A DNA stretch of 41,829 nucleotides. Source: Neglectibacter sp. X58. Its GTDB lineage: Bacteria > Bacillota > Clostridia > Oscillospirales > Acutalibacteraceae. Made by a program: the position numbers and the translations under genes. How positions within the stretch are numbered: the first letter of the stretch is position 1; every line of letters begins with the position of its first letter. Positions 9,029-40,625 of this stretch are shown here, piece after piece. A model generated the notes under the pieces. It was not told the origin of the DNA. It saw only the letters and a list, made by a program, of their open reading frames with translations, and did not search any database. The stretch covers positions 1 through 41,829 of the forward strand of contig NZ_QWEO01000022.1 in the NCBI RefSeq assembly GCF_009936035.1, read 5' to 3'.

Positions 9029-9059
9029 GGGCAGGGCGCCTTCTGGCGGCGCCCTGCCT
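9029..9059 (-). terminator. Terminator of the amidase gene
   Basis: A 12-bp G/C stem (9029-9040 with 9048-9059, one mismatch) lies 56 bases past the amidase stop. The T-tract on the minus strand is short. Confidence 0.55.
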
Positions 9060-9114
9060 CTTGGATTGCCCCTGCGGAGCAAGGGGATGAGAATTCATTT
9101 GCCCAGGTAGGCCC

Positions 9115-9670
9115 TTACAGCGCGCGGAAGCCGAAATAGCTGAGCAGGCCGTAATAAATGCCCTGGGCGAACCCCCACTGGTCATTTTTCAGGCGCTGGG
9201 CATCCGCCTGGTTTGTCAGATACCCCAGTTCCACCAGCACGGCGGGCATGGTGGTTTTCCGCAGGACGTACAGGGAGGGGTTCAGGCGCACGCCGTTGTC
9301 CCGGGTGCCGGTCTGCTGGGTGATGCCGATGAGGATGTGCTGGCCCAGCCAGTAAGGCTGGGTGTTGGCCTGATAGACATAGGCCTCGCTGCCGTTGATG
9401 GCGGGGTTGGAATTTGCGTTGCAGTGGATGCTGAGGAAATAATCTGCCGGCCAGGAATTTGCCATCTGCACCCGCGCCCGCAGGCTGGTGGCGTTGCTGG
9501 TGCCCAGTATCTCATTGGGCGTGTGGCGGGAAACCCGCACCGCAAAGCGCGGATCCTCCTCCAAAAGCTCCCGCAGATACATGCCTACCTGGTAAGTAAT
9601 ATCCTGCTCCCGCAGGCCATTGCCCTCCGCCCCGGCGTTAATGCCCTGGGGGTTGTGGCCTTGATCAGCC
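9115..9670 (-). pseudogene. N-acetylmuramoyl-L-alanine amidase, 5' end removed by ICE insertion
   Basis: The Amidase_3 (AmiC-like) catalytic domain is almost complete: zinc histidine in DQGHNPQG, glutamate in GNGLREQD, histidine in SIHCNANS and catalytic glutamate in VLVELGYL. Such enzymes cleave the glycan-peptide bond of peptidoglycan outside the membrane. The domain starts abruptly at DQGH (about 9666). The bases before it belong to the 3' end of a serine recombinase read in another frame, so the signal peptide and first strand are missing. The frame stays open to 9738, but that stretch is recombinase coding sequence with no ribosome binding site. The missing 5' part should lie beyond the other end of the element, outside this window. 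Confidence 0.85.
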
Positions 9671-9685
9671 CCTGTCAAGCCCTGA

Positions 9686-11260: not shown

Positions 11261-12957
11261 GCGGATTCCTTCTTCCCGGCAGTTTGCAGGATGGATACCA
11301 GGTTTTGAAATTCATCTTGATACCGCAGGGTGATGGAAATGTAGCCGGATGCGTCCACCTCCACCCGCTGGATTAAGGCGTGGGCGATTTCTTCCGTCAA
11401 CCCGGTTTCATCGGCAAAATGGCTGCAGGCTGTAAGCCACAGGTTTCGGGTAGTCTGCCGTGCCCGTGACGCTTTCTGCTGTTCCAGTTCATCCAGCCTT
11501 GCCTGAGCTTGTTCCATCTGAGAGCGGTACTGCCGCTTCATTTCGGTGTATTCCCACTCGTCCATCAAGCCGTCCACATAGTTCTCGTACAGGCTGTCGT
11601 GCAGTGTTTTGTACCTTTCTAATGCTTGGCTGGCCTTGCGGAGTTCCTGTTCCAAAGCAGATTTGCTCTCCAATATCGCAGGGGAGTGTTCGTATACCTT
11701 CACCAGCTTTCCCACGTTTTCCGCTAATTGGATTTCCCTCCGCAGGGTGCCCCACAAGACTTCTTTCAGCTTTGTTTCATACAGGTATTTCCTTGGGCAG
11801 GCGGTGCTGTCCGCATGGTGGGTAGGACAAATATAAGTATAATAAAGATGTTTTCCATGGGTGACCTGCTTATAGCGTGTTAACGGCTTGCCGCAGTCGG
11901 CGCAGAACACCAGCCCGCGCAGGATGTTGGGCATGGGGTCCAGGTGGTCATATTTTCCCAACGTCTTTTTGTATGTTTCGCTGGCTTTCTGCGCCAATTC
12001 CTGCACCTGCCGAAAGGTTTCCCTGTCCACCAAAGGCTCGTGGGTGTTTTTCACAATGATCCATTCCTCTTTCGATGTACGGCGCTGTTTCTGGCCCTGG
12101 CATAAGCCTGAAATCTTGCGTCCCTGCACCAGGTTCCCAATATACACTTCGCTTTCCAAGATGTTTTTTAGCGTAAAGATATTCCATCGGGCGTTTACAT
12201 AGCGGTCGGTCTGTATCTCCCCGGTTTGGCGCTTGTACTGCGCGGGGGTTGGTACGCCGCTGTCGTTGAGGTGTTTCGCAATTTTATTGAAACTCATGCC
12301 CCCGGCCCGCAGCCTGAAAATGTCCCGCACAATGGGGGCAGTAGAAGGGTCGGGTTCAATCTTGTGCTTGTCAGAAGGACACTTCCGATACCCGTAAGGC
12401 GCCCATGCGCCGATAAACTCCCCATTTCTCTGCTTGGTTTGAAGGGCGCTGCTGACATTCCGGGAGATATCCCGGCTGTAAACCTCGTTCATGATGTTTT
12501 TCAGCGGCACAATGTAGCCATCCTGGGAGCGCTCGGCGGTAAGGGTGTCAAAGCTGTCGTTCACGGCCACAAAACGTACATCCAGGAAGGGGAAGATTTG
12601 CTCCAGATATTGGCCTGTTTCCTTGTAATTGCGCCCGAACCGGGACAAGTCCTTCACCACAATGCAGTCGATTTTCCCGGCCCGCACATCGTCCATCAGC
12701 CGCTCAAACTCTGGACGCTGGAAGTTCGTGCCCGTGCGCCCGTTGTCGCAGTACAGGCCGCAAAATTCCATATCAGGCTGGGTTTCGATATACTCCAGCA
12801 CCAGTTCTTTTTGTGCTTCGATGGTATCTGCCCCGGGCTTACCGCTGTCCTCCACGGAGAGACGCACATAGCCACCAGTCTTGTAAACTCTCTGCTGGGG
12901 GACGGTTTCCATTGCCATGGGAACCAGTGGGTTGACTTTACGCTTTGTCCTCGCCAT
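11257..12957 (-). CDS. Large serine recombinase, second of three
   Basis: A 566-aa protein. The catalytic serine is S34 in GGYVRLSVED, with the motifs DLSRFGRNYKETGQ and FVAVNDSFDT. The recombinase domain is followed by a zinc ribbon (FCADCGKPLTR ... YICPTHH) and a coiled coil with many glutamines and glutamates. The basic N-terminal extension (about 25 residues) is longer than in the other two. The ATG at 12957 is one base after the stop of the upstream recombinase; the track-length frame begins inside that gene and is rejected. It overlaps the next recombinase by 4 bases. Confidence 0.93.
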   Translation of the reverse strand: MARTKRKVNPLVPMAMETVPQQRVYKTGGYVRLSVEDSGKPGADTIEAQKELVLEYIETQPDMEFCGLYCDNGRTGTNFQRPEFERLMDDVRAGKIDCIVVKDLSRFGRNYKETGQYLEQIFPFLDVRFVAVNDSFDTLTAERSQDGYIVPLKNIMNEVYSRDISRNVSSALQTKQRNGEFIGAWAPYGYRKCPSDKHKIEPDPSTAPIVRDIFRLRAGGMSFNKIAKHLNDSGVPTPAQYKRQTGEIQTDRYVNARWNIFTLKNILESEVYIGNLVQGRKISGLCQGQKQRRTSKEEWIIVKNTHEPLVDRETFRQVQELAQKASETYKKTLGKYDHLDPMPNILRGLVFCADCGKPLTRYKQVTHGKHLYYTYICPTHHADSTACPRKYLYETKLKEVLWGTLRREIQLAENVGKLVKVYEHSPAILESKSALEQELRKASQALERYKTLHDSLYENYVDGLMDEWEYTEMKRQYRSQMEQAQARLDELEQQKASRARQTTRNLWLTACSHFADETGLTEEIAHALIQRVEVDASGYISITLRYQDEFQNLVSILQTAGKKESA

Positions 12958-12958
12958 G

Positions 12959-14590
12959 TCAGCCCACCTGCCTTTCGGCTTGGGCCATGCGGAGTAATTC
13001 GGCCTGCACTTCAAACTCGTTTTGCCAGCGGCAGACGATTTCTACCCGCTTATCGCGGAAAACCATCACCCGCTCTATGAGGGACACCACCAGCCGCCTG
13101 TCCAGGGCGGTTATATTCTGGTTCTGCCGGAAATGCTCTATCCAGCTATTGTCTACCGAGGCAAGCTCCCGGCCCATTTCCTCCCGCAGGGTTTCGGCCT
13201 GCTGCTCGGCTTCTTCGCGGCGCTGGGTGTAGGTCTTTTTCAATTCGCGGTACTCGTTTCGGTCGAGGATGCCGTCTGTCAGATTTTCATACAAAGAGCG
13301 CAGCAGCGTGTGCAGGCGGTCGATTTCCGCTTGCTTTTTATCCAGACGCGCCTGCATCTTTTGGATGATGGCCTGTTGCAGCCGTGCAGAATCAACCAGT
13401 TTTGATAAATTATCAAGGTCGATAACCTCTTGAATGTGTGCCTGCAAAGCCTCCAAAACCAGGCTTTCCAAGGCTTCTGTCCGCAGACTGTGGGGGTAGC
13501 AGGCTTTGTGCTCCTTGTGGTTGGCGCAGACATAATAGACGTACTTTTTCTTGCCGTAGGGCACGGTTTTCCGAATCATGGCCCCGCCGCACTCGCCGCA
13601 ATAAATCAGGCCGGAAAACAGTTCTACGGGCTGGCCCGCCTGGGATGTGCGGGTGTCCATAGCCAAGACGCGCTGGGCTGTGGCAAAGTCAAACTTATCA
13701 ATGATGGGTTCATGGTTGTTCTCGATTACCGCCCATTCCTCCCGGGGTTTCTGCACCAAGCGTTTGACTTTGTAGCTGGGCGTGGTGACGCGGCCTTGCT
13801 CCAAAACGCCGATGTAGACTGGGTTTTTGAGGATACGCAGCACCATGCCTGCGCCCCACACGGGATTTTCTTTCACCCGGAAGGAGGTGCTATACCGCAT
13901 TCCCAGGGATTTTTTGTACTCCATGGGCGTGGGGATGCCGCTGGCTGTCAGGCGGGCAGCTATGTCTAGGGCGCTGATGCCGTCCAGCTTCCAGTTGAAT
14001 ATGTCCCGTACCACGTCGGCGGCGTACTCGTCCGGCACCAGCTTATGGCGGTCAGACGGGTCTTTCTGGTAGCCGAAAACAGCAAAGGAGCCAATGAAAT
14101 CCCCGCGCTGGCGTTTGATTTCAAGCTGGCTCCGAATTTTGATAGAGATGTCCCGGCAGTAAGCCTCGTTTATCAGGTTTTTGAAGGGGACGATAATTTC
14201 ATCGGATTCCGCTTGGCTGTGCAGGCTGTCGTAGTGGTCGTTGATGGCGATGAACCGCACCCCCAAAAAGGGGAAAATGCGCTCGATGTACTCGCCCGCT
14301 TCCAGGTGGTTGCGCCCAAACCTGGAAAGGTCTTTGACCACGATGCAGTTGATTTTCCCAGCCTTGACCTCGCCCATCATCTCCTGGAAGGCGGGCCGCT
14401 GAAAATTGGAACCCGTAAAACCGTCGTCGATTTTCATGCCGCGCTCTTGCAAATCTCCGTGGCGCGACAAATAGTCACGAATCAAATCTTTTTGGCCCGT
14501 GACGCTGTTGCTTTCCTCCTTGTCGCCGTCCTCCCGGGACAGGCGCACATAACCGCAGGTGTTCCACACCTGTGTGTCAAGGTTTTTCAC
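12959..14590 (-). CDS. Large serine recombinase, first of three
   Basis: A 543-aa protein. The catalytic serine is S18 in CGYVRLSRED, with DLSRFGRNHLEAGE and FIAINDHYDS. The recombinase domain precedes a zinc ribbon (YCGECGGAMIRK ... YYVCANH) and a coiled coil. I place the start at GTG 14590 because GGAG is 9 bases upstream; an in-frame ATG at 14629 has no ribosome binding site. It is the promoter-proximal gene of the trio. A hairpin at 14633-14668 precedes it. Confidence 0.9.
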   Translation of the reverse strand: MKNLDTQVWNTCGYVRLSREDGDKEESNSVTGQKDLIRDYLSRHGDLQERGMKIDDGFTGSNFQRPAFQEMMGEVKAGKINCIVVKDLSRFGRNHLEAGEYIERIFPFLGVRFIAINDHYDSLHSQAESDEIIVPFKNLINEAYCRDISIKIRSQLEIKRQRGDFIGSFAVFGYQKDPSDRHKLVPDEYAADVVRDIFNWKLDGISALDIAARLTASGIPTPMEYKKSLGMRYSTSFRVKENPVWGAGMVLRILKNPVYIGVLEQGRVTTPSYKVKRLVQKPREEWAVIENNHEPIIDKFDFATAQRVLAMDTRTSQAGQPVELFSGLIYCGECGGAMIRKTVPYGKKKYVYYVCANHKEHKACYPHSLRTEALESLVLEALQAHIQEVIDLDNLSKLVDSARLQQAIIQKMQARLDKKQAEIDRLHTLLRSLYENLTDGILDRNEYRELKKTYTQRREEAEQQAETLREEMGRELASVDNSWIEHFRQNQNITALDRRLVVSLIERVMVFRDKRVEIVCRWQNEFEVQAELLRMAQAERQVG

Positions 14591-14632
14591 TATAAATCTC
14601 TCCAATCTGTCAAGACTAATAATCAGCAAAAG

Positions 14633-25512: not shown

Positions 25513-25923
25513 CCACATTAAATTCGATTTGACTATCGGCTTATGGCGGCAAGGTATGTGGATTAAGTATCTTTTGTGGTGCGGTCTGCTTGCATTGGCT
25601 ACCTTGGAATTCTCCGGAAGGGTAACTTCTCTGAAAATTACCCAATGTACCTATGGGGACTATCTACTATACATTTTTGGTGGAATGCGTGAGTATATTC
25701 CCATACCGGGAGAACCCTTCCAGATCCCCTATCTATGGGCTGATCAACCATATTGGAATTCTCTACTTCACCCTCCACTATATGCACGACGATCTAAATG
25801 GTCTTGGTCAGCAGATGATTCTTCGTTCTAGGAGTAGGTCGGTATGGTGGATTTCCAAATGTATCTGGAACGGGGTAGTTGTGTCGCTTTTTTACCTAAT
25901 TGCCTGGGGAACAGTACTGCTTT
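25499..25923 (+). pseudogene. Second ABC permease, frameshifted and truncated
   Basis: From GTG 25499 the frame reads KLFSHIKFDLTIGLWRQG and a membrane helix up to about IPYLW (25740). Similarity then moves to another frame, giving INHIGILYFTLHYMHDDLNG, GQQMILRSRSRSVWWISKCI and a further helix. A one-base indel near 25735-25745 explains this. The frame breaks off near 25920, where ABC ATPase sequence begins, so the C-terminal part is deleted. Confidence 0.78.
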
Positions 25924-26184
25924 CGGCAACAACGTCTGGGAATTGCCGCAGCAATTTTAGAACGTCCTGCTCTTTTGCTGCTGGATGAACCCACAAACTC
26001 CTTGGATACCAGTGGTGTGAAATTAGTAAAGAACATTGTTCAGGAAGAAAGGGACAGGGGCGCTACGGTAGTACTCTCCTGTCACGATGGGACAATTTTA
26101 ATGGAACTGGCAGATGACATTCTGTCCATTGAGGGAGGAAAGTTGGTGTCCTCCCGTAAAACAGAAGAGGAGGTATTGACATGA
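25924..26184 (+). pseudogene. ABC transporter ATPase, 3' fragment
   Basis: Eighty-six codons starting in the signature region (RQQRLGIAAAIL). They include Walker B (LLLLDEPTNSLD), the switch histidine (LSCHDG) and a normal C-terminus. Walker A and about the first 130 residues are missing. The join with permease sequence suggests one deletion of the permease end plus the ATPase start. Its TGA overlaps the next ATG by 4 bases. Confidence 0.85.
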
Positions 26185-26385
26185 ATGTCAGGAGATCTGT
26201 ATGGAAACAGACGGCTTTAGTAGGCATCTTAGCTGTTATCATAGCCTTCATTCCTCTCTGCATGTACAATGGAGTGAGGATAAACCAGGATAAAATCAGT
26301 CCGCAGGTGGAAATGTTCTCCCTTGGAGATGCCGTAAATCTGGAGGAGAATTTTTTCTCAGATGCAACTGAAAACCCTAACGGTT
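26181..26385 (+). pseudogene. Membrane-anchored protein, 5' part (split by nested element)
   Basis: Sixty-eight codons: a short cytoplasmic start (MNVRRSVWKQ), one membrane helix (TALVGILAVIIAFIPLCMY) and the beginning of an outer domain that stops at ENPNG. GAGGAGG lies 7 bases before the ATG. The 3' part is at 33949-34393. Joining them at the TT core gives an uninterrupted 215-codon frame (ENPNG-YSITVNSAEL). Possibly DUF5028-like; function unknown. Confidence 0.88.
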
Positions 26386-26406
26386 TGCTCATGTGAGATA
26401 AAGAAG
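26386..26406 (+). repeat. Left terminal inverted repeat of the nested element
   Basis: TGCTCATGTgagaTAAAGAAG. It matches the reverse complement of 33928-33948 at 17 of 21 bases. Confidence 0.85.
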
Positions 26407-26434
26407 TAAAAGAAGTGTAAAAAATTTTGCCGTT

Positions 26435-26460
26435 CCCTGTCCGGCTGACTGCCGGACGGG
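26435..26460 (-). terminator. Terminator of the nested recombinase gene
   Basis: Stem 26435-26445 with 26451-26460 (one bulge), followed on the minus strand after 8 bases by AATTTTTT. It lies 7 bases past the recombinase stop. Confidence 0.7.
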
Positions 26461-26467
26461 TCGGGCT

Positions 26468-28090
26468 TTAGTCGGGCAATTCTACCTTGCCGACAAAAGA
26501 GTAATAGATTTCGATTTCCTGTCTGCGGAGCTTCCCCCGCCGTTTCCCGTCAAGGGCTTCCGATTCGTGGATTACGATTTTCTCCACAAACTCCCGTAAC
26601 AGGGTAGGGGTGAGTTCCTCAAAGCTGGTGTACTTGCGTACCACTTTCATAAACTTTTCAGCGTTTGCCGTGGCTTCCAGCGTCTTAGAAAGCTCGCTCT
26701 GCAAGGCGGCGGCTTTCTCTTTCAGTTCCTTTTGCTCGGCTTCGTAGTCTGCCGACAATTCCGTGAAACGCTCGTCCGATATGCGCCCGGTCACGCTGTC
26801 CTCATACAGCCGCTTGAAGATAGCGGAGAGTTCCGCAATCCGTTTTTCTGCCGCTTCCAGCTCTTTCTTCTTGGCGGCGTTCCGGCGTTTGCTCCCGTCC
26901 TCGGTCTGCTCGGTCAAGAGCTTCATAAACCGGGCTTCATGCTTGGCGGCGTAGCTGGTGACTTTCCGTAGGTTCTCGGTCACTCCCTCGGTCAACAGGT
27001 CGGTGCGGATAAAGTGCGCCGTACAGTCACGGGTTCGCTTTTTGTAGCTGCCGCATATGTAGCAGTCCTGCCGCCGTTTGGCCGTCTGGTATCTCTGCTG
27101 GTACATGACGCTGCCGCAATCGGCACAAAAGAGTATGCCGGAGAACAAACCCACTTCATCATAGCGGTTAGGGCGTTTGCGCTGCTTGCGTAGCTCCTGC
27201 ACACGCTCCCATGTTTCCCGGTCAATGATTGCTTCGTGGTGGTTCTCAAATACCGCCTGTTTCTCCACGGGGTTCTCTACGCTGTGCTTTACCTTGTAGG
27301 ACGGCTTCTCGGTCTTGAAGTTCACAAGGCAGCCCGTGTATTCCCGGTTTTCAAGGATATGCGCCACGGTGTTTGTCGCCCACCTGCACTCATAGCCGGG
27401 GTGGTAGCGGCGGGTGCTTCCCGTCCGGCGGTATTCCAGCGTTCCCGGCGTGGGGATTTGCTGCTCGGCAAGCATACGGGCTATCTTGGTCGGTCCGTTC
27501 CCGGCAAGGCAAAGGCTGTATATCTGCTTTACCACGGGGGCGGCTTCCCCGTCAATGATGAAATTTTCGTCCTCGTCCATGAGGTAGCCATATACGGGCT
27601 TGCTTGTGACGGGCTTCCCGCTCATGCCTTTTGACCTCTTGACTGCCTTGATTTTCTTGCTCGTATCCCTCACCAGCCATTCGTTAAAAATGTTACGCAA
27701 GGGGGCAAAATCGTTGTCGCCCTGTGCGCTGTCAACGCCGTCATTGATGGCAATGAAACGGACGCCGTTCTGTGGGAAAATCATTTCCGTGTACATTCCC
27801 ACTTGCAGATAGTTTCGCCCTAACCGTGACATATCTTTTACGATAACCGTTCCCACAAGCCCCGCTTCAATGTCGGCAAGCATGGACTGGAAGCCGGGTC
27901 TTTGGAAATTTGCCCCGGAGAATCCGTCGTCCGTGTACCATTTGAGGTTGGAAAAGCCGTTCTGTTTTGCGTAGGCTTCCAGAATCCGCTTCTGGTTGCT
28001 TATGGAGTTGGATTCGCCTTGGAGCGTGTCCTCGTGCGACAATCTCGGATAAAGGGCGGTAATGAGTTTTTGGGTGGTCTGTCTTGGCAT
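26468..28090 (-). CDS. TndX/TnpX-type large serine recombinase
   Basis: A 540-aa protein resembling TndX of Tn5397. The catalytic serine is S18 in LYPRLSHED. MSRLGRNYLQVGMYTE and FIAINDGVDS are conserved. A recombinase domain and a zinc ribbon (FCADCGSVMYQQRY ... CYICGSY) are followed by a coiled coil (370-470) and a C-terminal domain with LREFVEKIVIHESE. GGAGG precedes the ATG at 28090. By family knowledge it excises and inserts the element via a circular form without other recombination proteins. It is intact, so the element could still move. Confidence 0.95.
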   Translation of the reverse strand: MPRQTTQKLITALYPRLSHEDTLQGESNSISNQKRILEAYAKQNGFSNLKWYTDDGFSGANFQRPGFQSMLADIEAGLVGTVIVKDMSRLGRNYLQVGMYTEMIFPQNGVRFIAINDGVDSAQGDNDFAPLRNIFNEWLVRDTSKKIKAVKRSKGMSGKPVTSKPVYGYLMDEDENFIIDGEAAPVVKQIYSLCLAGNGPTKIARMLAEQQIPTPGTLEYRRTGSTRRYHPGYECRWATNTVAHILENREYTGCLVNFKTEKPSYKVKHSVENPVEKQAVFENHHEAIIDRETWERVQELRKQRKRPNRYDEVGLFSGILFCADCGSVMYQQRYQTAKRRQDCYICGSYKKRTRDCTAHFIRTDLLTEGVTENLRKVTSYAAKHEARFMKLLTEQTEDGSKRRNAAKKKELEAAEKRIAELSAIFKRLYEDSVTGRISDERFTELSADYEAEQKELKEKAAALQSELSKTLEATANAEKFMKVVRKYTSFEELTPTLLREFVEKIVIHESEALDGKRRGKLRRQEIEIYYSFVGKVELPD

Positions 28091-28107
28091 AATGTCCTCC
28101 GTTTCCG

Positions 28108-28162
28108 ACAGCCAGCCCCACTATTCCGTAGGTTTATTATACCATAGGGCGGGGCTGGCTGT
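28108..28162 (-). promoter_or_regulatory. Dyad around the recombinase promoter
   Basis: A perfect 12-bp inverted repeat (ACAGCCAGCCCC / GGGGCTGGCTGT) encloses a TATAAT box (complement of 28136-28141). This may be an operator or a hairpin that controls recombinase expression. No clear -35 box. Confidence 0.5.
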
Positions 28163-28219
28163 ACAGTCTTTTTTGCTTCTTTACCGCCCGTCAAAATGAC
28201 GGTTTTTATCTGCGGGTTG

Positions 28220-28417
28220 TCATGCGCTGTAAATCGGCTTGTGTCCGGCTGCGCTTTCGGCTTCCAGCACCTTCATCATCTTGTCGGCGGCGGTGGCGGT
28301 CGTGCCTTGCTTGAAGTAGCCGGAAACCACAAGGACGGTGTTCCCCCGGCGTACCTCGGTCACGCAATCCGGGCGGCGGGCGGTAGTGGCGGTGCTTCTG
28401 TTGGGGGTGTCGGTCAT
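28220..28417 (-). CDS. tnpW: TnpW-like transposon-encoded protein
   Basis: A 65-aa protein matching the small TnpW family carried by Clostridia elements: RRPDCVTEVRRGNTVLVVSGYF, then ATAADKMMKVLEAE. Function unknown; it is consistently next to the recombinase gene. AAAGGAG precedes the ATG, which overlaps the TGA of the DnaC-like gene by 4 bases. Confidence 0.85.
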   Translation of the reverse strand: MTDTPNRSTATTARRPDCVTEVRRGNTVLVVSGYFKQGTTATAADKMMKVLEAESAAGHKPIYSA

Positions 28418-29265
28418 AGGCTCTCCTTTCTGTTCAGCAGCGTTTTAAGCTGTTCCATTTTCTCCCTTGCTCTGGCTTTCCTGAAATTCTCCCCGGTAAT
28501 GCGGACGGGGGTACACATTTCCGTAAGGCGGTCATATATCCGGGCATGGGCGGTGTCCTCCGGGTTCTGCAATTCTTCCAGCGTCAAGTTTGTTGTCACG
28601 ATTAAGGGCTTTCTGCTGCGGTATCGGCTGTCAATCACGTTGTAAACCTGTTCAAGCCCGTATTCCGTGCCACGCTCCATGCCGAAATCGTCAAGGATAA
28701 GCAGAGGGAAGCTGCAAAGGCGGGCTATGTACTCGTTCCTGCCCTTATAGCTGGCGGCAAGGTCATTGAGGATAAGGGCAAAGTTTGTCATGCACACGGA
28801 AACCTCTTGCTCCATGAGGGCGTTGGCGATACACCCGGCGAAATAGCTTTTGCCTGTGCCTACCATGCCCCATAACAGATAGCCGATATTCCCGGCTTTC
28901 ATTTCCTCCCAACACTCTACATAAGCATGGGCTTTGTGCATTTGGGGGCATTGCCCGTTGTCGTTTTCAAACGTCCATTCCCGCATAGCCGGGTCGGTGA
29001 AGCCTGTCCGTTTCAGCCGTTCCACTTCCTCCCGGTGCTTGTATTCCCGGTGGCTGGCTTCCAGCTTTTCCCGGCGTTTTCTCTGGCAGTCACATTCTTT
29101 CGGGTGGCGGTCACGTCCGAAAAATGTTTTGCCCTCCGGGAAGTAGGCTTCTTTGGGCTGGCGGCAGCTCCCGCAATATAAAAGCCCGTCCTCCCCGGTG
29201 TAGTCCTCTGGCTCTGCTCCCTGTGCCGTGGCAAGCCGGAAAATGGCGTTATCGTAATCACACAT
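28414..29265 (-). CDS. DnaC/IstB-like ATP-binding protein
   Basis: A 283-aa AAA+ ATPase. The N-terminal cysteine cluster (YCGSCRQPKEAYF ... CDCQRKRR) probably binds zinc. The ATPase has Walker A in GMVGTGKSYFAG and Walker B in LLILDDFGMER. It is likely a helicase loader for replication of the excised element. I chose ATG 29265, with GGAGGACG 8 bases upstream, over the ATG at 29286, which overlaps that site. Confidence 0.88.
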   Translation of the reverse strand: MCDYDNAIFRLATAQGAEPEDYTGEDGLLYCGSCRQPKEAYFPEGKTFFGRDRHPKECDCQRKRREKLEASHREYKHREEVERLKRTGFTDPAMREWTFENDNGQCPQMHKAHAYVECWEEMKAGNIGYLLWGMVGTGKSYFAGCIANALMEQEVSVCMTNFALILNDLAASYKGRNEYIARLCSFPLLILDDFGMERGTEYGLEQVYNVIDSRYRSRKPLIVTTNLTLEELQNPEDTAHARIYDRLTEMCTPVRITGENFRKARAREKMEQLKTLLNRKESL

Positions 29266-29327
29266 AAAATCGTCCTCCTTGTTCATGGTCTTTTACGTCC
29301 TGTTTACGGGGCGTTGTGTCTATGCGG

Positions 29328-29726
29328 TTAAAGGCTCTCGCCCTCCTTGTAGGAATAATCGGGAATTCCCTTTTTTGGCTTCCCCTTTGCCTTGTCATCA
29401 GCCGCCCAACGCCGGATAGTGGCGGCATGGTTCTTGTAGTTCTTCCCGCTGGAAGCGATATAGCCGGATAGACGGTCAATGTAATACTCCCATTTGCCGG
29501 GAAGCTCCTCTTGCAGCTCCGCAAGCTCTTTTTCTGACAGAATGACGTTTTTGTATCTGCCAAAAGGGGCGGGGGCGGTCTGTCCTTTCTTTAGCTCTCC
29601 CTCTCTCTTTATCTCTAACTCTATATCTATCTCTTTCTCTATCTCTATCTCTGGTGGACAAATGTCCGCCCCGTCTGGTGGACGTTTGTCCGCCACGGCT
29701 TCCGGCAATGCCTTTTGCTCCTGCAA
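29328..29726 (-). pseudogene. Replication initiator/replisome organiser, 3' part only
   Basis: About 132 codons equal the C-terminal part of phage-type replisome organisers in these elements: FGRYKNVILSEKELAELQEE followed by YYIDRLSGYIASSGKNYKNH and IRRWAADDKAKG. The N-terminal DNA-binding winged helix is missing. The frame upstream meets a TAA near 29808 without a plausible start; the only candidate is an internal TTG. A pyrimidine-rich microrepeat inside the gene encodes alternating Glu/Ile/Lys (EIEIEKEIDIELEIKREGE). Confidence 0.6.
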
Positions 29727-29809
29727 AGCCAGCCTTGCACGGCGTTTCCTCTCCCCCTCGGTAGAGGACTGACCGATTAGGAGTTCTACTGTGGTAGAAT
29801 CTTGCTCTT

Positions 29810-30171
29810 AAAAAGTGGCGGCTTCCTCTGTGTGGGCTTTTGCTGATAACCCCGGCTTGTTTGGCGTGGATTCTGCCAGCTATGCGGCGGTATTTCTCCC
29901 TCTATTACTTACTACGCACGGCAAGGCAAATCTGGCAAAGTTCCCCGAAATTTCTTTTCGTGTTTTCGTAACAGAATTTGACAAAAACGGAAGAATCAGC
30001 TCCGTTTTGCAGTGATATACGGACGGTTTCAAAAAATGCCAAACTTTCCGGCAATTATTTTTCCCCTTATTACCTACTACGGGAAAAAAGAAAATTTAGG
30101 CAATGTTTTCCAAAAGTATTTGAATTATTTTATTGCGGTACAAAATCCGGCTTGGTTTTTGGCGCAAAAAA
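29810..30171. other. A/T-rich non-coding stretch in the nested element
   Basis: No gene supported on either strand. Two related motifs (ttactacgcacgg... and ttacctactacggg...) about 150 bases apart, with A/T-rich surroundings, could be part of an origin or transfer site. This is speculation. Probably also the place where the initiator N-terminus was lost. Confidence 0.35.
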
Positions 30172-30198
30172 ACAGGAAACCTTTTCTTGATTTCCTGT
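30172..30198 (-). terminator. Terminator of the winged-helix regulator
   Basis: Stem ACAGGAAA / TTTCCTGT with an 11-base loop and T7 on the minus strand. Confidence 0.85.
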
Positions 30199-30235
30199 CT
30201 TTGGCTGCCGCTGATGAGCGGCGGTTATTCTGTTG

Positions 30236-30664
30236 TTATTCCCCGGACGCAAACTTGTAGCCCACGCCTAAAACGGTCTTTATGTAGGTAGGGTTTTTGC
30301 TGTCCGGCTCTATCTTTTTCCGCAAGTTGCATATCACGCTGGCAACGCTTGACTGGCAGCTTTCACTTTCCATGCTCCACACGGCTTCAAAGATTTGCGC
30401 CTTTGTGAATACCCTCCCCGGACTGGCGGCAAGGTAGCAGAGTGCGCCGTACTCTAAACGTGTGAGAGGAATGTCTGCCCCGTCTTTCAGTACCCGGCGT
30501 TGGTGCGGTCTGATTTCCAATCCCGGAAAAGTAAGTGCCGGGGAGTGGGGCGGCTGCATGGCTTCCAGCGGTATCATATCCGCAAGGGCGGCTATGGCTT
30601 TCTCAACCGCTTTTTCTTCTGTGTCGTTAAATATAAGCATGACTATTTTTGCGACAAATCTCAC
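30236..30664 (-). CDS. OmpR-type winged-helix regulator without receiver domain
   Basis: A 142-aa protein whose C-terminal 95 residues are a Trans_reg_C domain: PGLEIRPHQRRVLKDGADIP, LTRLEYGALCYLAASPG, SVASVICNLRKKIE and the wing YIKTVLGVGYKF. There is no phospho-acceptor domain. The start is uncertain: GTG 30664 overlaps the AGGAGG, while ATG 30640 lies far from it; similarity starts near the latter. It is located 6 bases after the HTH gene. Confidence 0.82.
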   Translation of the reverse strand: MRFVAKIVMLIFNDTEEKAVEKAIAALADMIPLEAMQPPHSPALTFPGLEIRPHQRRVLKDGADIPLTRLEYGALCYLAASPGRVFTKAQIFEAVWSMESESCQSSVASVICNLRKKIEPDSKNPTYIKTVLGVGYKFASGE

Positions 30665-30670
30665 CTCCTG

Positions 30671-30883
30671 TTAGGTAGGCTGTCCGTCAAAGCGGAACTG
30701 GAACAGGGCAGCAATAAGCCGCCGTTTAATGTTGTCCTCTGTGTCCTTGTTGACCTGTCCGTTTTCAAGGGAAGCAAGCCGGATTCGCTTGCTGTAATGC
30801 CGTAAAACCTCGTCAATGGCTTCCGGCTCTCCGTTGGTTGCTCTGACAATCGTTTCATACGGTACAAGTTTAGGATTTCTCAT
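30671..30883 (-). CDS. HTH domain protein (Tn916 Orf8-like)
   Basis: A 70-aa protein of the small conjugative-transposon helix-turn-helix type (MRNPKLVPYETIVRATNGEP, then AIDEVLRHYSKRIR, ending ALFQFRFDGQPT). GGAGG is 9 bases before the ATG at 30883. Its start overlaps the end of the sigma factor gene by 14 bases, a pairing seen in Tn916 relatives. Likely an accessory to that sigma factor. Confidence 0.85.
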   Translation of the reverse strand: MRNPKLVPYETIVRATNGEPEAIDEVLRHYSKRIRLASLENGQVNKDTEDNIKRRLIAALFQFRFDGQPT

Positions 30884-31313
30884 GGAAAAGTACCTCCATT
30901 TCTTTATGCAGCATTTGCAAGGCACTGTGTATGTGATGCCACGCCGTACTTCGGCAGCGTCCGTATAGTTCCCCGATTTCCTGCTGTGTGTAATGTCCGA
31001 AAAAGTAAAGATAAATGATTTCCCTCTTTTTCTCCGGCAAGGCAGACAAGGCTTCGGCAAGCTCCCCGTTTGTGAAGATAACCCTCTGACCGCATATCAT
31101 AACTGGGTATTGCTTGTAGGGGTCTATGTAATATGTGTCTGACGTACAGAATGGATAAAACTTTTCTTCCGTGAGATATTCAAAAGATATTTCCCTTTGC
31201 CGCCGCTTATCTCTGTCACGCCATGCGTTGATAGCGGCATAGTGTATGACAACTCTGCAAAAGGCGTTAAATGTGTATTCGATATGCTCCTTGTATGCTT
31301 CTGTACAAGGCAT
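30870..31313 (-). CDS. Sigma-70 family sigma factor (Tn916 Orf7-like)
   Basis: A 147-aa protein. Region-2-like helices (EYTFNAFCRVVIHYAAINAW) are followed by a region-4 helix-turn-helix: LSALPEKKREIIYLYFFG then HYTQQEIGELYGRCRSTAW. Such proteins control transfer genes in Tn916-like elements. AAAGGGGG precedes the ATG. It is intact, unlike the sigma factor of the host ICE. Confidence 0.88.
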   Translation of the reverse strand: MPCTEAYKEHIEYTFNAFCRVVIHYAAINAWRDRDKRRQREISFEYLTEEKFYPFCTSDTYYIDPYKQYPVMICGQRVIFTNGELAEALSALPEKKREIIYLYFFGHYTQQEIGELYGRCRSTAWHHIHSALQMLHKEMEVLFHEKS

Positions 31314-31406
31314 GGTAATCCCCCTTTCCTACTAAGTGGCAGTTAAGATTTTAATGATAGTAAGGGGCGGCAGCATTTTTTGCTGTCGCTCCTTGACTAC
31401 CCAGCA

Positions 31407-31481
31407 GCAAAGACAGACGGGGCTGTCAACGGCGGGCGAAGCCCGTTCATCTTGACCGTTGACTGGCTCGTCTGTCTTTGC
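31407..31481. repeat. Three-tiered inverted repeat (cruciform)
   Basis: Outer arms of 13 bp are perfect (31407-31419 with 31469-31481). A nested GTCAACGG / CCGTTGAC pair and a central CGGGC-GAA-GCCCG hairpin lie inside. It overlaps the stop codon of the ABC permease. It may terminate the cargo operon, though no U-run follows, or act as a DNA site such as an origin of transfer. Confidence 0.6.
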
Positions 31482-32194
31482 TATTTATCAATTCTTCGTA
31501 ACAGAATACTACACATAACAGTAGCTAAAATAAAAATCAAGAGCAGTGGCAAAAGGCTTTCAAATTTAAAAGCATTTTCCGCCAGTAGTTTATATCCCCA
31601 TGTAGCCGGAAATAGTTTTCCTATTGTTTCAAACGTTTTTGGAAGTAGTTCAATAGGAAACATAATTCCAGAAAGCATGGTTGACGGCAAAAAAACAATA
31701 ATAGAAAACATAGAAGTTTTTGCCTGGTCTTTTACTGCCAAACCAATTATGCTGGCAATACTTAATGATACTGCAATAAAAACAGCGAGGCTGATGAAGT
31801 ACATACCCGGATTTTTTGGTATTTCAGCGTTAAAAGCCAGTGGCGCAGCAATATATAAAATAATGCTCATGAGGAACAAATGAATATACGCTGAAATGTT
31901 TGTTAAAGCAAGACCTAATATTAACGGAACACCATTTGCTTTATAGACTTTTTTAATATCACTGCTGTAAATTTCAACAAGAGAGGGCGGCAGACCAATC
32001 AACGCCCCCATTGTCACACCAAATACAGTCATGGACTGAATAAGCGTATATCTCGCTTCCGGCATGACTGATGTAAATATACCGCCCATAATTACAAAGA
32101 ACAAAAGAGGTACGATATAGCAGGTTATAAGTAATGTCTTACTCCTTATGTCTAACTTCCATTGTAAAGAAACTCCGTATAAAAAAGCTCCCAT
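31481..32194 (-). CDS. ABC-2 type permease (cargo)
   Basis: A 237-aa protein with six hydrophobic helices (about 20-38, 52-72, 92-118, 130-152, 160-182, 212-230) and the typical ABC-2 segment PSTMLSGIMFPIELLPKTF before the last helix. It pairs with the ATPase gene ending 2 bases upstream. Likely exports a small amphiphile, drug or peptide; substrate unknown. Confidence 0.88.
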   Translation of the reverse strand: MGAFLYGVSLQWKLDIRSKTLLITCYIVPLLFFVIMGGIFTSVMPEARYTLIQSMTVFGVTMGALIGLPPSLVEIYSSDIKKVYKANGVPLILGLALTNISAYIHLFLMSIILYIAAPLAFNAEIPKNPGMYFISLAVFIAVSLSIASIIGLAVKDQAKTSMFSIIVFLPSTMLSGIMFPIELLPKTFETIGKLFPATWGYKLLAENAFKFESLLPLLLIFILATVMCSILLRRIDK

Positions 32195-32196
32195 TG

Positions 32197-33006
32197 TTAC
32201 TCCCCCTTTGCAATTTTTATAAAGTGCTGTTCCAGTGAACCACGGTCTATCTTAATATCTGTGATAGTTTCTCCTTTTTCCTTGTACTGCATGAGCAGCG
32301 AAAGTAGGGAATTTCCGATATTTTCCGATTCATAGTTTTCAGTCCTGTTTTCCGTTTGGATTGTGATATTATAATGCTTCCCGATTGTATCGCCCAGTTG
32401 CCCGACAGTCCCGATAAAGGCAATTTTGCCGCCGGAAAGAATAGCAATCCGGTCACACAAATTCTCAACTTCTGCCATATCATGGCTTGCTAATATGATT
32501 GTCTTTCCGATTGCTTTTAACTGACGGATTTGTTCATGTAAAGATATTTGCCCCTCAACGTCAAGTCCTGCTGTTGGTTCATCAAGAAACAAAATGTCGG
32601 GATTTCGTGTTAATGCAAGCGCCAGATGGAGCCGCCGCTTTTGCCCGGTTGATAATTGATAATAAGGCTTTTTTGAAAGTTCATAAATACCAAGAGCGTC
32701 AAGCGTTGCTCTGTCAAGAGAGGTCTTATTCCATTTAGCAAACAGCTTTACAGCTTCCAGTGCTTTAATGTATTTCGGCAAAGAAGCCGATTGTAATTGA
32801 ATGCCCATGATTCCATTTATAGTAATGTTTCCGCTGTCATATTTTCTTAAACCCTCGATACATTCAAGCGACGTGGTTTTTCCAGCTCCATTCACGCCGA
32901 GCAGAGCAAAAATTTCTCCTTGTTGTACGCTAAAATCTAAACCATTCAGCACAATGTGAGTTCCATAACTCTTTGATAAATTGCTGATTTTTATAGCTTC
33001 ATTCAT
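32197..33006 (-). CDS. ABC transporter ATP-binding protein (cargo)
   Basis: A 269-aa ATPase: Walker A GVNGAGKTT, signature LSTGQKRRLHLALAL, Walker B ILFLDEPTAGLD and H-loop ASHDM. It is complete, in contrast to the broken ATPase of the surrounding operon. It overlaps the MerR gene by 4 bases. Confidence 0.94.
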   Translation of the reverse strand: MNEAIKISNLSKSYGTHIVLNGLDFSVQQGEIFALLGVNGAGKTTSLECIEGLRKYDSGNITINGIMGIQLQSASLPKYIKALEAVKLFAKWNKTSLDRATLDALGIYELSKKPYYQLSTGQKRRLHLALALTRNPDILFLDEPTAGLDVEGQISLHEQIRQLKAIGKTIILASHDMAEVENLCDRIAILSGGKIAFIGTVGQLGDTIGKHYNITIQTENRTENYESENIGNSLLSLLMQYKEKGETITDIKIDRGSLEQHFIKIAKGE

Positions 33007-33803
33007 TCTGTTTCCTCCTTAAATGGGTCAATGCCTAAACGGGAAAAATAAACACCTAATGCTTGTTCAACATATCCGTTCGCAATATCCTGGGCTACTT
33101 TCCATTTATGGTCTGCATTCTGAAACTGCCCTAATTCAATCAGTCTGGGAAGCATACTCATATCTCCGCCAGTGAAATCCATAATCATATCCCAATAGGC
33201 TTTTGCAAAATTCTGTGTCTCATCACTATCCGCAGGAATATTCGCATTTTGAAGTCTTATTGCTTCGTTTTGAAGCTGCATGAAAGTGTTCACAAATGCC
33301 GTTCCGCTATCTTTGTCAAAATGGCTGCGGATATGGTCAAGCGTTTGGTCGTCAAAATGTTTAATCAGCCAATAGAAATCGTTTTTCATTTGCAGATTAA
33401 CAATAATATCCGCATATTTTTTGAAATCAACTGATTGCATTTGAAGGACTTCTTTCCGCAGCACCTCCAATTCTCTCAACGATTCAGACAGACTTTCTAT
33501 TTTCCGTTTGACAGTGACTGCCTGCTCCATTAGAACATCAGCAATTTCATCTGGTGTATCAAGCAGAATCAGTCGATTTTTTATGTCGTCCAAAGAAAAT
33601 CCCAAATGTTTGAGCGATAAAATCTGATGAAGTTTTACTATGTCTTTATCTGTATATAACCTACGCCCCCCTTCACTCATGGCAGAGGGGGAAAGCAAGC
33701 CCTCTCTGTCGTAATGTTGTAATGCCCGTACAGTAACGTCCATTTTTCTTGCAATTTCACCAACGGTCATATAACCTTGTGGTATCGCTTTATGTTTATC
33801 CAT
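33003..33803 (-). CDS. MerR family regulator
   Basis: A 266-aa protein. The MerR DNA-binding domain is at residues 10-80 (MTVGEIARKMDVTVRALQHY, YTDKDIVKLHQILSL). A coiled coil (about 95-125) and a TipA-like effector domain with a long helical C-terminus (FDDQTLDHIRSHFDKDSG, then VAQDIANGYVEQALGVYF) follow. GGAGGTG precedes the ATG at 33803. First gene of the transporter operon, so an inducible autoregulator is likely. Confidence 0.92.
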   Translation of the reverse strand: MDKHKAIPQGYMTVGEIARKMDVTVRALQHYDREGLLSPSAMSEGGRRLYTDKDIVKLHQILSLKHLGFSLDDIKNRLILLDTPDEIADVLMEQAVTVKRKIESLSESLRELEVLRKEVLQMQSVDFKKYADIIVNLQMKNDFYWLIKHFDDQTLDHIRSHFDKDSGTAFVNTFMQLQNEAIRLQNANIPADSDETQNFAKAYWDMIMDFTGGDMSMLPRLIELGQFQNADHKWKVAQDIANGYVEQALGVYFSRLGIDPFKEETE

Positions 33804-33820
33804 GTCACACCTCCTCGAAT

Positions 33821-33851
33821 AGTATATCTCATTACGTTGCGTCACAAGCAA
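33821..33851 (-). promoter_or_regulatory. MerR-type promoter with 19-base spacer
   Basis: Minus strand TTGCTT (33846-33851) and TATACT (33821-33826) are separated by 19 bases. The overlong spacer is characteristic of promoters that MerR proteins twist into activity. It starts the MerR-ABC operon. Confidence 0.75.
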
Positions 33852-33927
33852 GTGCTTTTAAGAAGATTTAAGAAAAAATACGGAATAGTGGGCTGCTGGC
33901 GGTCTATCTGTTGTTTTCAGTTGCTTG

Positions 33928-33948
33928 CTTCTTTACCGTACATGAGCA
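33928..33948 (-). repeat. Right terminal inverted repeat of the nested element
   Basis: Read on the minus strand: TGCTCATGTacggTAAAGAAG, matching the left end except for the four central bases. Confidence 0.85.
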
Positions 33949-34393
33949 TTATTCCATTACAGTGAACAGCGCGGAGCTGGTAGAGTATGTCCCCTTTCTG
34001 GAAAGCTTTGGAATTACCACAAAGGATTTCGGGTATACAGAAGGCTACCCTGCCCCTGAATATACATATTTGCTCCATGTCACGGTTGCCAACACAGACA
34101 ACACGGAGGGGGCGTTAATGGCAATCAACTACGCTCTGTACGACAAAGCGTTGAAGATTCCCGTAGATTACTCCCTCTGGAGCTTGATGGACGAAGGTTT
34201 TCCTGGGGAGGCAGGGTTTCGTTTACGGGAAAATTCTCAGGTAGATATTACTATTCCCTTTACACCAATGTCATTGGACACAGCCATAGACAATGAGAAG
34301 TTGAGTAAGAGAATGGAAAACAGTGATTTCTATTTCTGCGTCAGCGAGTTTCCTGTGAGAAAAATGGTTTTGATTAACCAAAAAAATTGGTGA
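33949..34393 (+). pseudogene. Membrane-anchored protein, 3' part (split by nested element)
   Basis: About 147 codons continuing the 26181-26385 frame: YSITVNSAELVEYVPFLES, VTVANTDNTEGALMAINYAL and a C-terminus ending MVLINQKNW. The outer domain is probably a beta-sandwich. Without the 5' part it has no start or anchor. Confidence 0.85.
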
Positions 34394-37748: not shown

Positions 37749-39402
37749 CTAGTCCCATTTCCCTTCTCGGGGATTGGTGGACAGCAGCCGGTACAGCTTC
37801 GTGTCCTTGGGCACGGTGCTGACAAATGGGACAAGCGTCCCGCTCACCTTCATTAAGCCATGGCCAGGCGGCACGTCCTTGAAAAACTTCTCCTGGTTCT
37901 CCGTGATTTTGTAAAGCTCCGCCAGCCGATGGGCATTGGTGGGGGATTGATTCAGCATCACCACGAAATCGGTGTTTGCCAGCATCGCCCGCCCGGATTC
38001 GCTCTCCAAGACTTCTTCCGTGTTCTGGGTAGCCCCGGTGCAGTAGCCGTTATACTTGCGGATTCTGCGCCAGAGATTGGCAAAAAACTTGCCCGTGTCC
38101 TCGTCCTGGAAAAGAAGGGCAAACTCGTCCGCGTAGACAAAGGTAATCTTTCCCTGCCTGTAGTTGCGCATGACGCGGCCCAACAGATGGTCTAACGTAA
38201 TGAGAGTGCCGATGGGCTTCATCTGATCGCGCAGGCCGTTGAGACTGTAGCAAATAAGGCTGCTGCCGCTGTCTATGTTGGTGGCCTTGGAAAATGTGTT
38301 CAGTGCGCCATCTACAAATCTTTCCAGCGACAGGGCCAGTTCCTGCGCCCGCTGGTTCTCCATGCGCAGGAGGACGATGCGGAAATCCCCCAACAGTGGC
38401 GGGCGGTACTTGCCTTTGGACTTGAGGAAATCCTTGTAGACCATGCGTACCGCCCGGTCAATGAGGGATTTTGTCTGCGCGTCCAACCCGCCCCCTTCGC
38501 TTACTTTCTCGCAGAAGGTGGTGATAAACTCGGTTTTGTAGGCCAGGGGGCTGCGCTCCCTCAAGTCCAGTTCCAGGTCAAAGGGGTTGATGCTGTCCTG
38601 CCCAACGTGGTACACTTCGCCGCCAAGCTCGGTGGCAACCTTTGCCCACTCCATTTCAGGGTCTAAAACCAGAAAATCCGCCTTGTTGGGCGGGTATTTC
38701 AGCCGCAGGGACACCAGTTCTTCCTTACAGAAAAAGGATTTGCCGCCGCCCGTCATGCCCAGCACAAAGCCGTTGCCGCTGCTCTTTGCCAGACGGTCAA
38801 CCACCACAAGGTTTCTTGTAGCGGCGTTCTGCCCATACAGCACCCCGGTGGGGTCGCAGATTTCCTCTGCCTTGAAGGGTACATAGGCCGCTAAACTCTC
38901 GCTGGTAAGGCTTCTGTCCATAGAAATGCGGTCAAGGCCGTAGGGCAGCACCGTGTTCAGCGCGTCAAGCTGCTGGTCGGTGCAGGTGCTGAAATCGCAA
39001 GCCTTGCCACGGGTCATGCTGCGGATGAGCTTTGTGTCAGAATCCAACTGTTCCAAACTATCCGCCGTATGCGCCAGGGTGATGGTCGCCAGCACCATGC
39101 CCTGGTCGCGGCTGGTGATGTCGTTGAGGTTGTCGGTCAGGCCCTTGCGCTCCTTCTGGAAGTGGAGCGGTTCGGGCATGGCAACGTGCATCCGCTGGAG
39201 CTGCCGGTGCTGGAATTGCATGGAGTTAGCCTCCACGGAATCCAGCTTGCGCATATGGAATTTTACGGCCTCGTCCATGGACACGGGCACGAAGTTGACG
39301 GACAGAATCATCTCCATATCCAGGTCGGCCAGGGCCATGAGGGTTTCCGGGAAAACCCAGGTGCCGGTGCCGGGTCTTCATCTTCTTTTCTGTTGGTATC
39401 AT
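37749..39402 (-). pseudogene. VirB4-like conjugation ATPase, N-terminal half deleted
   Basis: The intact frame (529 codons, down from about 800) covers the end of the N-terminal domain and the whole motor: Walker A GMTGGGKSFF, Walker B ITFVYADEFALLF and the TQNTEEVLES sensor. It resembles the CD1110 family. The true start is probably ATG 39402 (AAAGGAAAATGTG before it), giving MIPTEKKMKTRHR. After about 13 codons the sequence jumps, in another frame, to TWVFPETLMALADLDMEM. Roughly 250 codons are thus missing. A motor-only product from ATG 39338 is possible but lacks a ribosome binding site. Confidence 0.8.
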
Positions 39403-39757
39403 CACATTTTCCTTTCTTTCTGGTTTCGTTGATTATGGCCCGCAAGGGGTTCTCCGGCCGGAAGAACACGGGCCTGCCCAGCACGATTCTTGACCGGATG
39501 AACACAAGCACAATCTGCTCAAAGGGCAGGCCGTGCCACTGTACGAAGCCGAACGCCCCAAAGGGCACAGCCGCCGCTACGCAAAGCCAGCTCACCATTT
39601 CCATAGGCATACGGCGGTGGCACAGGAAGTAAACGCCCAGGGCCGCGCCCCCGGCCAGGGCCGTGAAAGCCAACTGCCGGAGCGTCATGCCGAAGTAGAC
39701 CACTTCTTTGTAGTCCCGCACCTCTTTGTTTGATTTTATCTGCATACTGTTCGCCAT
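39308..39757 (-). CDS. PrgI family conjugation protein, C-terminus altered
   Basis: A 149-aa protein. Residues 1-110 are the PrgI fold of Gram-positive type IV secretion: a cytoplasmic start (MANSMQIKSNKEVRDYKE), two helices (LRQLAFTALAGGAALGVYFL and VSWLCVAAAVPFGAFGFV) and FRPENPLRAIINETRKK. The deletion in virB4 removes its normal end, so the last 30 or so residues (GFSRKPSWPWPTWIWR) are out-of-frame VirB4 sequence. GGAG lies 9 bases before the ATG at 39757. Confidence 0.82.
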   Translation of the reverse strand: MANSMQIKSNKEVRDYKEVVYFGMTLRQLAFTALAGGAALGVYFLCHRRMPMEMVSWLCVAAAVPFGAFGFVQWHGLPFEQIVLVFIRSRIVLGRPVFFRPENPLRAIINETRKKGKCDDTNRKEDEDPAPAPGFSRKPSWPWPTWIWR

Positions 39758-39761
39758 ACTA

Positions 39762-40625
39762 TCACACTCCAAATATTCTATGGGTCACCTGGTCGGCCCC
39801 CTTGATGATGCCCAGCAGCAGGAGCATATTGAAAATCAGGGTGTACATATAGGCCATCTCGTCTGCCGCGCTGCCCAGCCATTGGAAGATGTCCACGCTG
39901 CCGAAGTCGATAAGCGGGGCCTGGGAGTAGGCGGCGAATATAATCATAGCAAGGCCCACGATGAAGCCCTCCAAACTCACCCCGGCAAAGGCCCGGAGAA
40001 AGTTCTGGCCCACGCTTTGGGTGGATTCGGAACCGAAGCAGGCCAGGGGGATGGGGGACAACGCCGCGAACAGGTAGATTTTGAAAAATCTGCCTATCAC
40101 GGTCAGCAGCAGCGTTACGGACAGCACGATGGCAACGATGAAACCAATCAGCCCCAGCAAAAGCGAGGGTATCTGCGCCAGCGGGTTCAAGATAGACATG
40201 GCGGCGGACAGGATGCCCATGATGCCATCATCCCCGAAGTCTGGCGCAGTGATGCCCGCCCAGACGTTGCCATCTGTCAGGCCGCTGGTGAGAAAGGCTT
40301 TGGCCGTCAACGCGCCGGTGATGGTGAAGATTCCATTGACCAGCGTCCAGGCCATCCCGATGGCGTACTTCGTCAGGATAAAGCGCACCAGAAGTTTTAT
40401 GATATGTTCAGGACGTTTCAGCTCCACATAGGAACCGGCTGTGCGCACTACGTTCCACAAAGTCAATATGACAAGCAGGGCGTATGAAAACGCCTGCAAG
40501 CCGCCGTTTATCGCCTCCATAGTTGCCGCCACGTTGGGGGCAAAGGCTTCCAGGTCTTTTGTGAGGAAACCGAAGCTGGTTTCCATGGAGAAGCCGAACA
40601 GGTCTAAAATCGCTTGAATAAACAT
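39762..40625 (-). CDS. VirB6/TrbL-like conjugation membrane protein
   Basis: A 287-aa polytopic protein of the CD1112 type: about six helices, with the conserved stretch RFFKIYLFAALSPIPLACFG followed by NFLRAFAGVSLEG. It forms part of the inner-membrane channel of the transfer apparatus. It is followed by prgI after 4 bases and looks complete. Confidence 0.88.
   Translation of the reverse strand: MFIQAILDLFGFSMETSFGFLTKDLEAFAPNVAATMEAINGGLQAFSYALLVILTLWNVVRTAGSYVELKRPEHIIKLLVRFILTKYAIGMAWTLVNGIFTITGALTAKAFLTSGLTDGNVWAGITAPDFGDDGIMGILSAAMSILNPLAQIPSLLLGLIGFIVAIVLSVTLLLTVIGRFFKIYLFAALSPIPLACFGSESTQSVGQNFLRAFAGVSLEGFIVGLAMIIFAAYSQAPLIDFGSVDIFQWLGSAADEMAYMYTLIFNMLLLLGIIKGADQVTHRIFGV

Follow-up and report, generated by a model that had tools for sequence, protein, structure and literature searches.

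A TT-core integrated element in Neglectibacter sp. X58, very probably a member of the IME_Rho_tet recombination family with an internal deletion and no tet gene

IME_Rho_tet (Sidibe et al. 2026, PMC12904643) is a 10.7-kb integrative mobilizable element (IME) with 21-bp inverted terminal inverted repeats (TIRs) and a 3′ boundary 81-90 bp past the stop codon of its recombinase. Among its recreated target sites, 116/256 (45%) are in Maff2 genes, and 80% of tet(W) copies lie ~656 bp from the 5′ TIR. Here, we analyzed a stretch of 41,829 nucleotides from Neglectibacter sp. X58 (contig NZ_QWEO01000022.1 of assembly GCF_009936035.1, positions 1 to 41,829; hereafter the window), in which an element of 7,563 bp (26386-33948) is nested inside a host gene. 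This element is very probably a tet-less representative of the IME_Rho_tet recombination family, shortened by an internal deletion, that was integrated at a TT dinucleotide by its own DUF4368-containing large serine recombinase.

As in IME_Rho_tet, the window element has 21-bp inverted TIRs, which were matched on length and orientation and not on letters, and it ends 82 bp past the recombinase stop, within the published range. Its relatives share a backbone of serine recombinase, relaxase and mobC and frequently target Maff2. One relative with the same right TIR, L014, carries a TetM/W/O/S-type ribosomal protection gene that starts 661 bp inside (NF033148, 1280.8 bits vs. a cut-off of 1100). 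Several differences set the window element apart from IME_Rho_tet: tet, relaxase, mobC and part of repA are absent, the cargo is an ABC exporter linked to MerR, and the occupied gene is DUF5028-like instead of Maff2. IME_Rho_tet is recognized by a relaxase and a recombinase within ten genes and, though not obligatorily, by insertion into Maff2; the window element has neither the gene pair nor this insertion site, nor does it have the relaxase of its own that a functional IME requires. Since both tet and relaxase are missing, it shares the recombination features of IME_Rho_tet but falls outside the formal definition. PMC12904643 is the only paper we found under the name IME_Rho_tet, and its available part does not discuss tet-less copies; other descriptions may exist.

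The recombinase also has counterparts outside this family. Durrant et al. 2022 (PMC10083194) described a multi-targeting clade, 63% of which has DUF4368 and which includes a TndX-like subfamily, and, for one multi-targeting integrase that has 21 targets, reported TT as the conserved core. A TT core is therefore not new for this branch. The window family likewise combines DUF4368, many unrelated targets (more than three) and a TT core; the published TT example has an AT-rich motif, whereas the non-Maff2 targets of the window family favour C in the tenth and eleventh positions before the junction on each arm. With Tn5397 and its TndX, the element shares a large serine recombinase, a dinucleotide core and insertion into genes, but Tn5397 is a 21-kb conjugative element with the core dinucleotide GA (PMC4430133). 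A preliminary description of the locus, made from its letters, had pointed to this contrast between TT and GA, and did so correctly. Finally, serine-recombinase IMEs are known in maff2, traG and snf2 of integrative and conjugative elements (ICEs) of the Tn5252 type (PMC5704250, PMC5357655; Tn4451 is named in the former). They resemble the window element in having a serine integrase, replication genes including DnaC, and a habit of nesting in conjugative elements by gene disruption; they are described as targeting particular genes, whereas the window's family uses many other sites too.

Ends, TT core and the interrupted gene

The element is delimited by the motif TGCTCATGT-N4-TAAAGAAG, which a pattern scan places at 26386-26406 on the plus strand (left, recombinase-side TIR) and at 33928-33948 on the minus strand (right, cargo-side TIR). 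Both copies have 0 mismatches, giving exact 21-bp inverted ends. No third copy is present in the window at up to 3 mismatches, where 0.11 would be expected by chance, and two copies at this stringency were found in 0/100 shuffles of the window. The dinucleotide TT stands directly outside each end, at 26384-26385 and 33949-33950, both placed from the sequence and from comparison of end copies. The nested element with its exact inverted ends and the TT at each junction are thus as first described.

A pattern scan of the genome collection returned at least 119 loci holding at least 122 ends; the scan required an exact match, including C at position 5, which leaves variants at that position outside the counts, and more ends exist. 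Among the matches listed, TT precedes 34/34 recombinase-side ends, and AA (TT on the other strand) precedes 83/88 far ends. The far ends that lack it are L041, L063, L087, L100 and L116; L087 and L116 were judged chance matches because their inner sequence is unlike the right end, and 83/86 remain when they are set aside. The rows are partly non-independent and represent 107 different 20-base flanks. The 48 genomes to which 50 chosen loci belong were searched for further ends; pairs of ends were chosen by eye among the matches listed, with the addition of L157, and TT is found on both sides in 22/24 of the elements with both ends, window counted. In a sample of the class, ends are present in 4/391 genomes, window included.

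Intact Maff2 genes, identified by Pfam search, provide empty sites for comparison. AA, which is TT when read on the opposite strand, stands once in the empty genes and flanks the element on either side in the occupied ones; around the Maff2 site, L143 and L198/L201 are base-for-base alike. As the two bases occur once in the empty and twice in the occupied genes, TT is the crossover dinucleotide. The TT core suggested for a TndX-like recombinase in the preliminary description therefore holds; the assignment as a deletion derivative in the IME_Rho_tet family is an addition to it.

The interrupted gene is split into a 5′ part at 26181-26385 (plus strand, left TT included) and a 3′ part at 33951-34393 (plus strand, from the reading frame of the joined flanks). 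When the flanks are joined with a single TT, an open frame of 215 codons results, as had been predicted. An intact 214-amino-acid homologue in genome G027, which is a different species with an uninterrupted gene, spans the join and has 70% protein identity over the 3′ part. The name DUF5028-like comes from this homologue, whose match to PF16431 is barely over the cut-off (30.3 vs. 29.9 bits). A family scan of 398 genomes, 15 of which had matches (the window's own genome counted), added 17 further homologue places in 14 other genomes. The alignment of 18 intact homologues, the kind of comparison proposed at the outset, has no gap at the join in any of them; the residue after the join is Y in 18/18 and the residue before it is G in 17/18.

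The codons at the join read GGC TAC in G027 vs. GGT TAT in the window, so that the core position in G027 is CT and not TT. The preliminary description had held that different junction bases at an empty site in relatives would count against it; the CT of G027 is such a difference, although it comes from another species, and TT is upheld by the other copies and the empty Maff2 genes. The claim of base-exact ends is therefore founded on those copies and genes and not on a same-species empty site.

Removal of the element was also said to restore the host gene, which is true of one reading frame but not of a working operon. The gene is part of an operon that also codes for a lipoprotein-like product, permeases and an ABC ATPase; none of the operon's open frames is interrupted in G027. 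Upstream of the insertion, ~835 bases of the G027 operon are reduced to ~21 in the window (25909-25929), in a lesion that spans the end of the second permease gene to the start of the ABC ATPase gene; its edges are approximate, being blast edges at 64-70% identity. The exporter operon was therefore hit twice and is broken independently of the insertion, and because of the second lesion, excision would restore one gene and not a working operon.

Backbone, internal deletion and proposed mechanism

All genes of the element are on the minus strand, with the recombinase at the left end and the MerR regulator nearest the right end. The large serine recombinase (26468-28090, 540 amino acids) has complete recombinase domains by domain search, namely: Resolvase, Recombinase, zinc ribbon and DUF4368 (PF14287, E 4.9e-24). 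Its open reading frame (ORF) ends 82 bp from the left element end (26468 minus 26386), i.e. at element position 83; the four relatives compared share this position with the window. In 15 relatives, the recombinase is 94-100% identical over 540 amino acids, reaching 100% in L140 from Eubacterium plexicaudatum. Matches in a plasmid collection are more distant: of 366 records, 4 have 60-80% identity at the best place and 362 have <60%, and the best 15 of the 366 by coverage are 39.9-47.7% identical.

Next to the recombinase are genes for a TnpW-family small protein of 65 amino acids (28220-28417, PF14202) and a DnaC/IstB-like ATPase of 290 amino acids (28414-29286; PF01695, NF005992). Tn4451 presumably has a TnpW-family gene as well. 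These are followed by the C-terminal remnant of a replication protein (29328-29726), which itself has no Pfam or NCBIfam match and was assigned because the 254-amino-acid full forms in L132 and L144 end nearly alike; we take the full form to be a replisome organizer by analogy. Homology to relatives stops at element position 3401-3403 (window 29786-29788) and resumes ~3 kb further on in the relatives. The ~3 kb that they hold at this join comprise the 5′ part of repA, a gene for a 144-amino-acid protein, the relaxase and MobC; for relaxase and MobC, a search of the window element up to E 1 gave no match. Beyond the join lie genes for an OmpR-type winged-helix regulator (30236-30664, 142 amino acids, PF00486), a helix-turn-helix protein (30674-30880, PF12645) and a sigma-70 region 4 protein (30870-31313, 147 amino acids, PF04545). 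The latter is the last backbone gene before the cargo and is found in 15/15 relatives searched, at 67-93% identity.

Among the matches listed, 15/23 paired relatives have the full 546-amino-acid relaxase (PF03432 in L142) as well as MobC/NikA, and these are 9.6-12.2 kb long. The sole grounds for choosing them as full from the 23 pairs were recombinase, relaxase and mobC; DnaC is broken in L142, and L137 contains an insertion. Other relatives are remnants with both ends and no full recombinase, e.g. L138, L147 and L149. The 37-kb pairs L152+L153 and L154+L155 might be taken for conjugative versions. However, their left-end sequence runs only to element position ~1,650 or 1,300, and since further backbone pieces lie 10-33 kb away, some of them inverted, these pairs are read as elements with other DNA inserted and are not used as evidence on conjugation.

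In the proposed mechanism, the recombinase would bring the circular form of the element, in which TT lies between the two 21-bp arms, together with a target that contains TT and is otherwise loosely specified. Both partners, the joined ends and the target, would be cut through both strands at TT; the exchange that follows would leave one TT per junction and interrupt whatever gene stood there, in this case the DUF5028-like gene of the ABC-exporter operon. From what is known of serine recombinases, exact excision would be the reverse reaction. The recombinase is predicted to be still working. Lacking a relaxase, the element would be expected to move to new sites inside its cell or to be carried along by a larger element. 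With its own relaxase and mobC gone, its transfer between cells would occur only as a passenger or with a relaxase acting in trans. Conjugation-type genes are present at 37749-39772 (PrgI is above the cut-off; the ATPase is just below it for TraG and just above it for FtsK), and three serine recombinases stand in tandem beside an amidase gene at 9686-14629. These genes suggest that a larger mobile element may be the carrier, and the window element is possibly surrounded by a larger integrative element.

Two observations concern end-like sequences elsewhere in this genome. First, the stretch 5′ of the recombinase gene (28117-28186) has two short motifs in common with the right end (33874-33938), namely: CCCACTATTCCGTA, inverted, and TTGCTTCTTTACCG, direct. 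The stretch may be an old end or a regulatory site common to both, or the likeness may be due to chance. Second, contig C10 of the same genome (G000:C10:41267-41287; L126, L156) has a right end standing alone, with one mismatch and AA beside it. Its end sequence is 91% identical over 68 bp, no full element copy was found in the 13 kb fetched, and it is probably the remnant of another copy. The genome (3.36 Mb) contains 58 recombinase matches, many of them partial, and thus has a heavy load of serine-recombinase elements.

Target choice and competing explanations

In the 7 genomes searched, many Maff2 Pfam matches end at model position 40-43 beside the far end or its TIR, and the right flanks of relatives translate to MAFF... 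ending in NDNPGA or SDNPGS (29 rows). A further 76 different 20-base flanks lack the Maff2 motif, which indicates many targets; this split is motif-based and approximate, so that some Maff2 flanks may remain among the 76, and it counts flanks, whereas Durrant et al. counted clustered genes. The non-Maff2 flanks (19 left, 53 right) have only a weak motif in common: counting back from the junction on each side, most have C at positions 10 and 11, and A at 14. The left half of the window target is at the 98.4th percentile of 5,444 TT halves and the right half at the 83.4th percentile of 5,460 AA halves, and 87/5,442 TT sites outside the element score at least as high as the window target overall. 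The same genome has one complete, unoccupied Maff2 gene with AA at the family site (G000:C154); the element therefore occupies another target while its favourite one stands empty.

Maff2 genes may be used at a second position. In the left flanks of L132, L133, L139, L140, L142 and L146, what remains of Maff2 often breaks off again after 'MKQ(F/V)MAN' or similar, and separate Maff2 pieces (model 44-70) are found elsewhere in the genomes searched, so a second element may insert into Maff2 a few codons downstream. For streptococci, two sites in maff2 have been described (PMC5704250, PMC5357655).

Several results weigh against the assignment given above. Three true right ends, those of L041, L063 and L100, lack TT, and the cores are unequal in 2/24 pairs (TT/TA in L150, whose end is the same as that of L100, and TT/TC in L154). 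Only the left side of the window target agrees with the family motif, and neither a same-species empty site nor a circular junction was seen. The likeness of the TIRs to those of IME_Rho_tet is one of length and orientation. Finally, L188 of E. plexicaudatum, which has a sibling of the window cargo, contains sequence of relaxase and mobC, but the 19.5 kb fetched showed neither a recombinase nor DnaC nor a left end, so that L188 does not prove that an intact parent with the window cargo exists.

The alternative that survives best is that the element is a fossil, i.e. that it has recombinase-type ends but arrived within a larger rearrangement or no longer moves. It would agree with the loss of relaxase, mobC and the 5′ part of repA, with the decay of the surrounding operon, and with the remnants lacking a full recombinase among the two-ended relatives. 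We nevertheless regard it as rather unlikely: the recombinase and both ends are intact, the recombinase protein matches the one in L140 at every residue, and the cargo half has 97-99% identity with copies at other sites in other genomes (L076/L189 and L188). Such high identities argue for recent movement of the lineage, although not for movement after the deletion.

An assembly error is considerably less probable. The genome is a draft of 185 contigs, in which the ~3-kb internal deletion could be an artefact and the true element could have a relaxase. The missing relaxase was not found elsewhere in this genome, however, where its best match has 34% identity (7 matches), and the next best match of the recombinase there has 47%; lacking near copies of either, the assembly had nothing to confuse. 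That the element is a DDE or tyrosine transposon with a 2-bp target duplication, with the serine recombinase as a mere passenger, is scarcely credible: a 2-bp direct repeat with inverted ends would by itself fit a DDE element, and the DnaC-like ATPase has some matches labelled as IS21 helper, but neither a DDE transposase nor a tyrosine integrase domain is present in the ten element proteins scanned, nearly all copies among the matches listed repeat TT, which target duplication would not give, and the recombinase ORF ends at the same element position in the window and four relatives. Integration at TT by the element's own recombinase thus remains our preferred explanation, and in kind the element is ordinary, a clean example with an obvious parent family.

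Exchangeable cargo of the family

The cargo of the window element is a MerR-linked ABC exporter, encoded by genes for an ABC-2 permease (31481-32194, 237 amino acids, PF01061), an ABC ATPase (32197-33006, 269 amino acids, PF00005) and a MerR-family regulator (33003-33803, PF13411); no tet gene is present. Copies of this cargo stretch in L076/L189 and L188 have 98-99% identity to it. The cargo sibling in L188 is interrupted by a 6.5-kb insertion (7800-14313) with ~7 bases repeated at its edges.

We compared the stretch from the sigma-like gene to the right TIR in the window and the 15 full relatives, scanning proteins of at least 120 amino acids (32 from relatives and 3 from the window; no hit for 3/35 at the limits used). 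A tet ribosomal protection gene is present in 3/16 elements, namely: L133, L136 and L139; as the stretches of L136 and L139 are identical, these represent two independent cases. ABC exporters are found in 4/16, associated with MerR in the window, a two-component system in L132, and GntR in L144 and L157. Another 2/16 have a BlaR1/BlaI-like pair (L145, L146) and 2/16 an acetyltransferase (L137, and L135 together with a GntR-aminotransferase protein). The remaining cargoes include a WYL regulator in L140 and L143, a PadR regulator in L142, an amidohydrolase and a flavin reductase in L134, and a HAD hydrolase and others in L141. In all, 13/16 elements have no tet gene in this stretch.

On balance, we lean towards the view that the tet(W)/tet(32) backbone is a general cargo carrier of gut Clostridia, in which the bay between the sigma-like gene and the right TIR is exchangeable and tet is a minority cargo, and whose relaxase-less members are predicted to keep jumping within the genome by means of the recombinase alone. 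Since the search for IME_Rho_tet requires a tet gene, tet-less copies fall outside it, and surveys seeking the carrier through tet genes alone would miss them. For the recombinases of this widespread gut family, the many junctions and the empty sites pin the crossover bases to TT.

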